NCBI GenBank assembly: GCA_019510125.1 | Contig: JAEKKX010000013.1 | Location: 102,183-166,182, forward strand | Length of the DNA stretch: 64,000 nt | From: Lysobacterales bacterium | GTDB taxonomy: Bacteria > Pseudomonadota > Gammaproteobacteria > Xanthomonadales > Xanthomonadaceae | Direction: 5' to 3' | Part shown: positions 11,111-17,130 of the stretch, piece after piece | Numbering within the stretch: the stretch's first letter is position 1 | Layout of the letters: each line of letters begins with the position of its first letter | Translations under genes and position numbers: made by a program | Notes under the pieces: model-generated | Told to the model about the DNA's origin: nothing | The model's database searches: none | What the model saw: only the letters and a program-made list of their open reading frames with translations

Positions 11111-11326
11111 ATGTCCGCACGTCCCCGCACGCCGCGCAAAGAGCGGCACCTCACCACCACCTACACCCATCGCGACTACTACGACGACGGCTTCTGGGTC
11201 AGGTCGCAAAGCTTCCCCGTCCTCCGCTTCGGTGGCGCCTGGCTCGCACAGGCCGGCTTCGCCATCGGCCAACGCGTCCGCGTGAAGGTCCACAAGCGCC
11301 GCATCGTCATCGAACCGGCGACGTAG
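11111..11326 (+). CDS. SymE-like toxin (type I toxin-antitoxin)
   Basis: 71 aa ending SFPVLRFGGAWLAQAGFAIGQRVRVKVHKRRIVIEPAT, matching the SymE fold pattern (G.WL..AGF..G..V.V.V....IVI). Confidence 0.75.
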   Translation: MSARPRTPRKERHLTTTYTHRDYYDDGFWVRSQSFPVLRFGGAWLAQAGFAIGQRVRVKVHKRRIVIEPAT

Positions 11327-11424: not shown

Positions 11425-11525
11425 TTGTGAGTTGATTCCGCGAGGCTCTACCAAGCCCAATCGCTTCTCAGCATAATCATGCCTGCTTGGGTAAGGAGTT
11501 TTACCTAACCCATTGTTTTAACTGG

Positions 11526-12473
11526 ATGAGGGACGCTATGCCGACGGCCGTTTCGTTGTTCACGGGATGCGGGGGATCAGATGCCGGGTTGGTTGAGGCC
11601 GGCTTCGACATCCTCATGGCCAACGACATCCTGGCCTACGCTGCCGAGGTCTACAGGGCCAATTTGCCTGAGACTGACTATCGAGTCTGCAGCGTCGAGG
11701 ATATTGAATCGTTTCCCAAAGCCGACCTGCTGGTGGGCTGCTACCCGTGCCAAGGCTACAGTCAAGGCGGCGCGCGTGAAGCTGGCAGAGACATCAACTA
11801 TCTTTTCAGGGAATTCGGTCGCGCTTTGCGTGCGATCAAGCCGCGCGCATTCATCGTCGAGAACGTGTCGGGTTTGACGCGTGCGGACAACAAGGAATTA
11901 TTCAATTGGCAGCTGCGCAATTTCCGATCTGCGGGATACAGAGTGTCATGGCAGTTGCTCAATGCGGCAGATTTTGGTGTCGCACAGGAGCGTCATCGAG
12001 TCATCATCGTGGGCGTTCGCAGTGATATCGGCGTGACATTCCAGTTTCCCAATCCTACTCATGGGCCGGAAGCCTCAAGGCCTTATATGACGATCAGGGA
12101 TGCACTGAAGGGTCTGCCAGAATGGCCTGAAGGCGAATTCAATGCCGAGCCTTTCCATTGGTATTACATGTCTCGAAATCGACGTAGGGGCTGGGACGAA
12201 ACTTCAAAGACAATTGTGAGTCGCGCGAGGCATATGCCTTTGCACCCTATGAGTCCGGAACTCGTATACAAAGGGCCTGATACTTACGAATTTTCCTCGA
12301 TGCAGCCGGCGCGGCGCTTCAGTTATCGTGAAGCAGCGAGATTACAGGGTTTCACCAGAGATATCGACTTCCCGGATAGTTGTGGAATGTATACGCGCTA
12401 TAAAGTCATAGGCAATGCGGTTCCGCCGCCGCTTTTTGCAGCTGTTGCCAAAGCTCTCCCAAGCATTTGGTAA
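11526..12473 (+). CDS. DNA (cytosine-5)-methyltransferase
   Basis: C5-MTase motifs: I SLFTGCGGSDAGLVEAGF, IV GCYPCQGYSQGG, VI FIVENVSG, VIII QERHRVIIVG, X YKVIGNAVPPPL. Start 11526 or 11538 (track uses TTG 11487). Confidence 0.95.
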   Translation: MRDAMPTAVSLFTGCGGSDAGLVEAGFDILMANDILAYAAEVYRANLPETDYRVCSVEDIESFPKADLLVGCYPCQGYSQGGAREAGRDINYLFREFGRALRAIKPRAFIVENVSGLTRADNKELFNWQLRNFRSAGYRVSWQLLNAADFGVAQERHRVIIVGVRSDIGVTFQFPNPTHGPEASRPYMTIRDALKGLPEWPEGEFNAEPFHWYYMSRNRRRGWDETSKTIVSRARHMPLHPMSPELVYKGPDTYEFSSMQPARRFSYREAARLQGFTRDIDFPDSCGMYTRYKVIGNAVPPPLFAAVAKALPSIW

Positions 12474-12474
12474 G

Positions 12475-13377
12475 TCATACCAAATCAAGCCTTGCTGAAA
12501 GAAAATCTGAAAATATTTTTGGCGTCCCTACAGTCTGCATTGCGTTGGATTCTTTGGTAAGTCTTAAAATGCGAAGCCTATCAAGCAGTATTGTTGAGGC
12601 AACGTCCCCATCAAAAGCCCAGCGACCTTGGTTGTTGCGGAAGCAGATGGGAATACATATAACTTGCATCCATGGGTGGGTCGGTACTAGAAGCTTCTTG
12701 AGGCGATCTCCAGAAACTTCCGCCTGTTTAGACACCCAGTCTTCCCGTGAGCATGCGCATTGACTAAGGCTAGACGGTATGTTTTCTTGCTCATAATCGT
12801 CCAGTGGAATCCAAGAAACTATATCTATACCTCCGTCGCCGGAATCCTTTGATCTGTACGATTTTGGTGATAGCTGTGGTCTTGCGCCTATGTCCTGCCC
12901 AAGCTTGTTAATTCTTTCCCATTTCTTTCCGGCGTATTCGGTCTCATTTTTCCCAAAGGGTTTTGTTTGAGCAGCCGGCCATATTTTCTTCAAGGCAAAA
13001 AGGCATAGCCTTTCGAAAGCATCGGTAAGTAGCATCCTGTCGGATTGACTTCGTACTGTGGGGAGATTGGCGCATAGCAAAATGAAAGCATAGAGGTTTT
13101 GATCGACTTCTAGGCTTTGCGGCGACTCAATTATGTTTCTGCTGGAGTTAATGCTAAAGGGATAGCTCTCTCCAAAAGCAGCTGATCTCCAACGAAGGTG
13201 AGAAAAGCAATCTTCCAATTCTTCGGAGGATAAGTTGCCGCCATTATCTCTGACGTGATCGGCAATCGAATCTGAGCCAATAATTCGATCAGGTGTTAGA
13301 AGGCATTCACGAGGTGTCTCAATCTTCAGCATCCTGCGTCGCCTCGACAAGTCCTTTAATACTTGAATGCAGTCCAA
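12475..13377 (-). CDS. Putative PD-(D/E)XK-like protein / candidate restriction endonuclease
   Basis: 300 aa; KDSGDGGIDIVSWIPLDDYEQENIPSSLSQCACSREDWVSKQ resembles a DGGID...QCA nuclease-like core. Convergent with the C5-MTase (3' ends 1-2 nt apart). Nuclease call is inference. Confidence 0.5.
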   Translation of the reverse strand: MDCIQVLKDLSRRRRMLKIETPRECLLTPDRIIGSDSIADHVRDNGGNLSSEELEDCFSHLRWRSAAFGESYPFSINSSRNIIESPQSLEVDQNLYAFILLCANLPTVRSQSDRMLLTDAFERLCLFALKKIWPAAQTKPFGKNETEYAGKKWERINKLGQDIGARPQLSPKSYRSKDSGDGGIDIVSWIPLDDYEQENIPSSLSQCACSREDWVSKQAEVSGDRLKKLLVPTHPWMQVICIPICFRNNQGRWAFDGDVASTILLDRLRILRLTKESNAMQTVGTPKIFSDFLSARLDLV

Positions 13378-14404
13378 TGGCGCTTTTGCGTAGTCTTTCT
13401 GCCTGACCTGCGTCTTGGTTTGTCAGGCCGTCTGCCACCGCGAGTGTTTCTTGAGCTGCTTTGACTGAGTTTTCCGCCAGAGACATATGCTTCCGAATTG
13501 CCTCTAGTGGGCCTGAGGTTAAAAGATCTGCCGTGTCAATTGAGTCGCCTCTGCGGAGTGAGGCTAGCGCACTTTCATTTGCCACAATACGTGCAAGTTT
13601 TTGAAAGTTTCTGGATTCTCCAAGAACGGTGGATCCCCTGTGCTCTTTGTCAAATACCCAGCGAAAGAATTCTTCAAATTCTTCTGCCTTAAGGCCTTTG
13701 GCTTCAACATCGCCCGCCCCTTCTAGTCCGATAAAGCTGGATATGCTCTCCCAGCCTATTCCGGTTGTAAGTAGTGAAAATGCTATGTCGTCTTCTTGCA
13801 TTTTTAATCTTGTGAGTATCCCAAGCTCGCCAGCTTTTTTTAGCAATGTGTATCCAGTTAGAAGTTTGGCAACATGAGCTGCTTTGCTGCCGATTTCTTT
13901 AGCAAGAGCCTTGTGGGCTTCTTGGTGATCTGGGCTGTGCAGCGCGCGCAACTGAAAAACATATCTGGCTTTTGCCAGTGCATCCCACTCTTTTATTCCT
14001 GTGATATGTCTGTAGCCGAGATAAGTAAGGATGTCATCTCGCTTGTCAAATCGAAGGACAGGGACGCTCGTTGGTCTCTCTTTTGCCCCTTTCCTCGCCA
14101 GCGATACCTGAGTATTTAGGACGGGCGGTTCTACATCATCTTGGAGTAGCTTCAATGCTCCGAGTCGACGATTGCCTTCTACAACTCGATAGAAACCCCC
14201 TTCATCTGGTACCACCATGAGTGGTTCCCCAGAGAAATAGCCTTTTTCCCCGATCGACATCATGAGTTCGATGAGGTTGCATTCTAAGAGCAGGTAACGA
14301 AGAACTTCTTCGTCAGGCTTGTTCTTATATTTTTCGGGTAGCCGTGGATTGTCGGGATCAAATCTCAGAAGGTTTACTGAAACAGAATCAAATTTTGGAT
14401 TCAT
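13319..14404 (-). CDS. ParB/Srx N-terminal-domain protein
   Basis: VNLLRFDPDNPRLPE...LIELMMSIGEKGYFSGEPLMVVPDEGGFYRVVEGNRRLGALKLL, ParB/sulfiredoxin-like EGNRR motif. Overlaps the downstream ORF by 59 nt. Confidence 0.8.
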   Translation of the reverse strand: MNPKFDSVSVNLLRFDPDNPRLPEKYKNKPDEEVLRYLLLECNLIELMMSIGEKGYFSGEPLMVVPDEGGFYRVVEGNRRLGALKLLQDDVEPPVLNTQVSLARKGAKERPTSVPVLRFDKRDDILTYLGYRHITGIKEWDALAKARYVFQLRALHSPDHQEAHKALAKEIGSKAAHVAKLLTGYTLLKKAGELGILTRLKMQEDDIAFSLLTTGIGWESISSFIGLEGAGDVEAKGLKAEEFEEFFRWVFDKEHRGSTVLGESRNFQKLARIVANESALASLRRGDSIDTADLLTSGPLEAIRKHMSLAENSVKAAQETLAVADGLTNQDAGQAERLRKSAIGLHSSIKGLVEATQDAED

Positions 14405-14439
14405 TGGTCATCTCCTAACACAGTCAATCCTGTGCGGGC

Positions 14440-17130
<2,691 letters not shown>

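Follow-up and report, generated by a model that had tools for sequence, protein, structure and literature searches.

The cassette and its genomic setting

The window, that is, the whole 64,000-nucleotide stretch of Lysobacterales DNA that was analyzed, contains a low-GC accessory island with three genes lying between a symE-like gene and aceE. The island has a GC content of 49% compared to 69% in the whole window and is its 3-kb GC minimum (0.49, window median 0.71), in agreement with the AT-richer block that the initial annotation had described at this site. The features are as follows.

About 11111-11326: SymE-like gene, read from the sequence
11440-14435: low-GC accessory island between the symE-like gene and aceE
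11538-12473, plus strand: C5-cytosine DNA methyltransferase (MTase), M.HaeIII-like, 311 aa; a longer ORF runs from TTG 11487
12471-12477: tail-to-tail junction of the MTase and nuclease genes, with one base between the stop codons
12475-13332, minus strand: Mrr/MspJI-like putative nuclease, 285 aa; a longer ORF runs from TTG 13377
13319-14404, minus strand: ParB-like protein, 361 aa, with an N-domain, a helix-turn-helix (HTH), a helical C-terminus and its own ribosome-binding site
14440-17130, same strand as the ParB-like gene: aceE

Each of the three ORFs is found, uninterrupted, at the position given previously, and the arrangement described there, an intact C5-MTase convergent with two overlapping minus-strand genes, was confirmed with revised start codons. 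For the MTase the most likely start is ATG 11538 (MPTAVSLF), as in its homologues, rather than at TTG 11487, and alignment with homologues places the most likely start of the nuclease at ATG 13332 (MLKIE; 285 aa) rather than at TTG 13377 (300 aa). With the nuclease starting at ATG 13332, its gene overlaps the ParB-like gene by 14 bp, and its stop codon (12475-12477) faces that of the MTase gene (12471-12473) across the single base. The ParB-like gene, which shares its strand with aceE, begins 35 bp past the aceE stop and has the ribosome site AGGAG. Five congeners carry different cargo at this site downstream of aceE (loci L155-L159), which by ORF reading consists in three relatives of DUF262-like and C5-MTase genes, a PIN-like gene, or ImmA/IrrE-like, PIN-like and HNH-like genes, and in the two others of kinase-like ATPase, response regulator-like and C5-MTase genes, or dCTP-deaminase-like and thymidylate-synthase-like genes. 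As judged from these ORFs, the 3′ side of aceE is a cargo hotspot in the window's genus and several of its cargoes are defense-like.

Predicted properties of the three proteins

The MTase gene is intact and its product matches the Pfam family DNA_methylase with an E value of 3e-63. Its closest match among PDB sequences is M.HaeIII (1dct, E 3.5e-42; next enzyme E 2.6e-22), in an alignment that spans the target-recognition domain, and the window enzyme keeps S224, R225, and R243 (MSRNR...R), which contact the target site in M.HaeIII (PMC11879396), while S219 and Q244 differ. This recognition motif is retained in 43 of the 58 C5 members of the cassette family described below, and in one P2-like record the MTase of the cassette is annotated as BspRI-like. 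From the relation to M.HaeIII, the target is probably GGCC or GGCC-like. PADLOC models for DruM also match the MTase, and assignment to Druantia was rejected, as these matches reflect generic C5-MTase similarity and no Druantia model matches either of the other proteins.

Assignment of the second protein to the ParB/Srx group, made previously from its EGNRR motif, has weak support in Pfam (E 0.07), whereas PADLOC, PHROGs and structure make it clear. The PADLOC model PD-Lambda-5_A matches it with an E value of 1e-18, over the N-terminal 154 aa only, and in PHROGs it corresponds to phrog_3694, annotated as unknown function. Its AlphaFold2 model (pLDDT 91) retrieved ParB, KorB, and Noc in Foldseek at probability 1.00 (E from 1.2e-5), with both the nucleotide-binding N-domain and the HTH covered, a clear match of the predicted fold to these CTP clamps. 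The N-domain carries the motifs NPR, EGNRR, and RH, and the invariant positions are NPR, E60, EGN-R (R80), H133, and W140. The EN pair of ParB CTPases aligns by eye with R132-H133, so that CTP switching is not assured and hydrolysis may differ.

The third protein has no match in Pfam, NCBIfam, PADLOC, or PDB sequences and corresponds to phrog_3984, also annotated as unknown function. With its AlphaFold2 model (pLDDT 78.5, pTM 0.81) the top three Foldseek matches were all MspJI chains, at probabilities of 0.95-0.99 with marginal E values (2.4e-3 to 1.2e-2) and low TM-scores, followed at low probability by SduA and the nickase BspD6I, and among viral models it matched an Mrr-like domain protein (probability 0.92). 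The family is predicted to be an Mrr-type nuclease resembling MspJI, with a D-x20-Q core, and the reading of the then 300-aa protein as a putative nuclease has gained a predicted fold, its best MspJI match reaching 0.99. In a non-redundant set of 65 ParB-nuclease pairs (<90% ParB identity), R49, P58, D170, Q191, R252, and R254 are invariant in 65/65 members and D166, K202 (64/65; Q+11), and D251 are near-invariant. We take the D170-x20-Q191 spacing to agree with the motif of MspJI. The nuclease of MspJI is an Mrr-type variant of PD-(D/E)XK, (D/E)..(D/E/Q)xK (PMC3874153), but the Mrr lysine position (Q+2) is occupied in the 65 members by Gly (41), Ala (23), or Thr (1) and in none by Lys. Hence catalysis would need another residue, for which K202 is a candidate, and is not certain. 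The cassette protein also differs from MspJI and Mrr in its linkage to an MTase and a ParB-like gene and in that Pfam and structure searches revealed no SRA, SRA-like or Mrr-N modified-base-binding domain.

Loss of the catalytic lysine position would be in keeping with another division of labor, in which nicking falls to the ParB/Srx domain itself and the nuclease fold of the 285-aa protein is dead, leaving that protein a structural or regulatory role, and ParB/Srx domains have indeed been reported as non-specific nucleases (PMC5512222). Such an arrangement is very improbable given that D166, D170, Q191, and K202 are invariant or nearly so in a family with a mean identity of 29%, and that the ParB-like protein keeps its HTH and the overall ParB-clamp fold.

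In the nuclease of the window an in-frame gap of 39 bp removes 13 residues from an N-terminal helix (ADFxEL) that inspection of the alignment located in the other 64/64 non-redundant members. The window copy may therefore be restriction-deficient, and judging from its sequence this cassette may modify only, or restrict weakly. The functional conclusions below rest on the whole cassette family rather than on the window copy.

Co-occurrence and co-divergence of the three genes

A search of IMG/VR with the ParB profile only, which is blind to neighboring genes, yielded 80 viral loci, in which the nuclease-like gene is adjacent in 79/80 and a C5-MTase is present in 77/80, the exceptions being contig ends (L061, L121, and L127). 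P2-like prophages dominate this set, which was ranked by how closely the loci resemble cassette members. Searching bacterial genomes with the nuclease alone identified six members, in about 1% of the species sampled, all six with an adjacent MTase, which is of the C5 class in the window, G125, and G581, of the D12 class in G176 and G250, and of the N6_N4 type in G071. The three genes thus co-occur in many genomes, as would be expected of the unit that the initial annotation had proposed. Two scans of genome contigs with the nuclease-like protein found no relatives, and viral scans with the nucleases of L004 and L010 gave no matches; the members came from bacterial genomes, plasmids, phages, and viral contigs, and those from plasmids and phages include Pseudomonas phage D14A, Wphi, phages 12474II-V, and rhizobial plasmids.

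An MTase could be assigned in 62 of the 65 non-redundant pairs, comprising 58 C5, two D12, and one N6_N4 enzyme (the non-C5 families by Pfam) and one split C5 gene further upstream. The remaining three pairs are at a contig end, the second pair on one contig, and in Persicobacter, the one genuine exception, where the region from 325 to 370 kb of plasmid NZ_AP025294.1 (L001/L142) contains a ParB-nuclease pair with no annotated MTase in 45 kb. The Persicobacter pair lies among small ORFs in a run that resembles a cassette array. The MTase gene is convergent with the pair in 52 of the 58 C5 triads, mostly with overlapping or near-touching stop codons, and since the other six are otherwise arranged, convergent orientation is not essential.

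Distances between the ParB-like proteins are closely correlated with those between the nucleases (r 0.95; 0/2000 shuffles), whereas the MTase distances are only weakly correlated with either (r 0.36-0.37). Mean identities are 37% for ParB, 29% for the nuclease and 63% for the MTase. These distances and identities suggest that the ParB-like protein and the nuclease form a tightly bound pair and that the MTase is a slowly evolving and exchangeable component. By sequence classification, the ParB-nuclease core is re-paired with at least three classes of MTase (C5, D12 adenine, and N6_N4), and this exchange of the MTase while the pair stays constant argues for a restriction-modification-like system.

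Cassettes in Escherichia coli and P2-like prophages

The cassette type of phage Wphi (gp98-gp96-mth) is at least 80% covered in 103 of 5,426 complete E. coli genomes. Signs of a diverged type occur in a further 36 (two of which were checked) and a third type is found in 48, giving 187/5,426 (about 3%) on the assumption that the three types share no genome. All of the E. coli copies are chromosomal, and their products are annotated in RefSeq as ParB N-terminal domain, hypothetical, and DNA cytosine methyltransferase. In Wphi and the E. coli prophages the cassette is situated between the portal gene Q and the replication gene A, an interval that is an antiviral hotspot of P2-like phages (PMC9122126). 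Together with the variable cargo beside aceE, this location favors the defense role that had been suggested from the window alone. In two cases an insertion lies in or beside the nuclease gene and the MTase is intact: an IS5-family element lies at the start of the nuclease gene in E. coli 98206, and an IS3-type transposase lies inside that of locus L022. Although there are only two, such insertions would be expected if the nuclease rather than the MTase can be dispensed with.

A "putative plasmid partitioning system" has been noted in about a fourth of P2-like phages (PMC9122126) which, with the ParB fold, raises the question of whether these are genes for plasmid-type partition or prophage maintenance beside an orphan MTase. 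This is scarcely credible, as no ParA gene is found in the cassette or among its immediate annotated neighbors, the island in the window is chromosomal, and the nuclease-like gene and the MTase are almost always neighbors, and a partition system was rejected on these grounds. The lack of a ParA in the cassette and the co-divergence with the nuclease instead favor a role for the ParB-like protein in partnership with the nuclease over one in segregation, as the initial annotation had it. Conversely, some of the "partitioning systems" of P2-like phages could be ParB-like defense cassettes of the present kind.

Relationship to known systems

The nearest relative is PD-lambda-5 (Vassallo et al. 2022, PMC9519451), an experimentally established anti-phage system that is also prophage-borne and also has a ParB-like N-terminal domain encoded beside a DNA MTase. 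By its loci, however, PD-lambda-5 has one protein of ~440-490 aa, which differs at its C-terminus and is encoded next to a D12 adenine MTase, and no separate Mrr-like nuclease gene. The best PD-Lambda-5_A models (428-508 positions) match about residues 1-154 of the ParB-like protein, with one weaker model extending to 195, and in place of the D12 enzyme the window and 58/65 pairs have C5-MTases, D12 enzymes being few. Membership was rejected for these two reasons, and on sequence the cassette is related to PD-lambda-5 through the ParB domain without being a member.

PD-lambda-5 has been called a compacted RM+Abi system (PMC9519451), and an abortive-infection variant of this kind can be envisaged in which methylated host DNA holds the ParB-nuclease pair inactive until disturbance by a phage leads to cell death or arrest. 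The shared ParB N-domain (E 1e-18) and the D12 MTases common to PD-lambda-5 and some cassette members are consistent with it. We consider this unlikely, however, as the similarity ends at about residue 154, neither the C-terminus nor the separate nuclease gene has a counterpart in PD-lambda-5, and the presence of a dedicated Mrr-like nuclease is in keeping with direct cleavage of DNA.

The initial annotation had proposed a modification-dependent system. In the strict type IV sense, an MspJI-like protein would cut methylated or otherwise modified phage DNA, and the closest fold, MspJI, is that of a 5mC-dependent enzyme. This is improbable, as no SRA-like domain was found, the cassette's own C5-MTase would turn host DNA into a target, adenine MTases are among the partners, and Mrr-type nuclease domains alone do not predict methyl-dependence (PMC3874153). 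Protective methylation accounts better for an MTase fixed beside the nuclease and for the two nuclease-gene insertions in which the MTase remains, and modification dependence is the weaker reading.

Like Type II restriction-modification systems of the HaeIII/BspRI kind, the cassette pairs a C5-MTase of predicted GGCC type with a putative PD-(D/E)XK-type nuclease, but it differs in having a ParB-like partner, for which a requirement is inferred, and a nuclease that matches no PDB sequence. A similar ParB-like N-terminal region is found in PDC-M38A of the PADLOC candidate PDC-M38 (profile positions 60-346, E 2e-15), which has a further C-terminal half, ATPase-like by many unrelated matches, that is absent from the cassette. 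ParB-superfamily domains also occur in the DNA conflict systems GmrSD, DndB, DpdB, and ParB-methylase fusions (PMC12839542, PMC5512222), but with other domain partners, and no profile match indicates membership. The three-gene unit has no description in the databases and literature searched; REBASE, subscription journals, and supplements such as the hotspot table of PMC9122126 lie outside that scope, and a prior mention is possible. It is very probably an unnamed relative of restriction-modification immunity.

Proposed mechanism

The three genes are likely to constitute one restriction-modification-like anti-phage cassette in which a ParB-like protein is a partner and self DNA is protected by its methylation. 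The MTase would mark the sites of the host itself, which are probably GGCC or similar, and the ParB-like protein, through its nucleotide-binding-type N-domain and HTH, would recognize sites left unmarked and, perhaps acting as a clamp switched by NTP, recruit or license the nuclease, which would then cut incoming unmethylated DNA. The ParB-like and nuclease genes are probably translationally coupled, as their 14-bp overlap in the window copy suggests, and the convergent MTase gene may lower expression of the nuclease by means of overlapping transcripts. A more specific version, which we put forward tentatively and regard as doubtful in its details, is that the specificity subunit is a ParB-type nucleotide-switched clamp. 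In that version the clamp would load wherever a site is unmethylated and either slide the nuclease, an Mrr-like enzyme whose catalytic lysine has moved, or license it; this core is the one that is re-paired with the various classes of MTase.

The cassette, which is present in the classical phage Wphi and in about 3% of the complete genomes of E. coli, is without a function in PADLOC or PHROGs. Should it prove to restrict, the ParB fold would underlie an additional restriction architecture, and ParB proteins would act in self/non-self discrimination rather than segregation. The versions in Wphi and other E. coli prophages make the cassette testable in standard laboratory strains.

Cassettes within larger gene clusters

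In the Neorhizobium plasmid NZ_CP147997.1 (69-79 kb; L005/L141), the ParB-nuclease pair ends a cluster consisting of a C5-MTase (two ORFs), DUF262, Z1, and PD-(D/E)XK genes, which suggests that larger, multi-gene restriction clusters can incorporate the pair. The human-gut phage contig MT835579.1 (11856-24461; L010) has a cluster of Vsr, C5-MTase, Z1, ParB, and nuclease genes, and it also carries a second, convergent nuclease-ParB pair.
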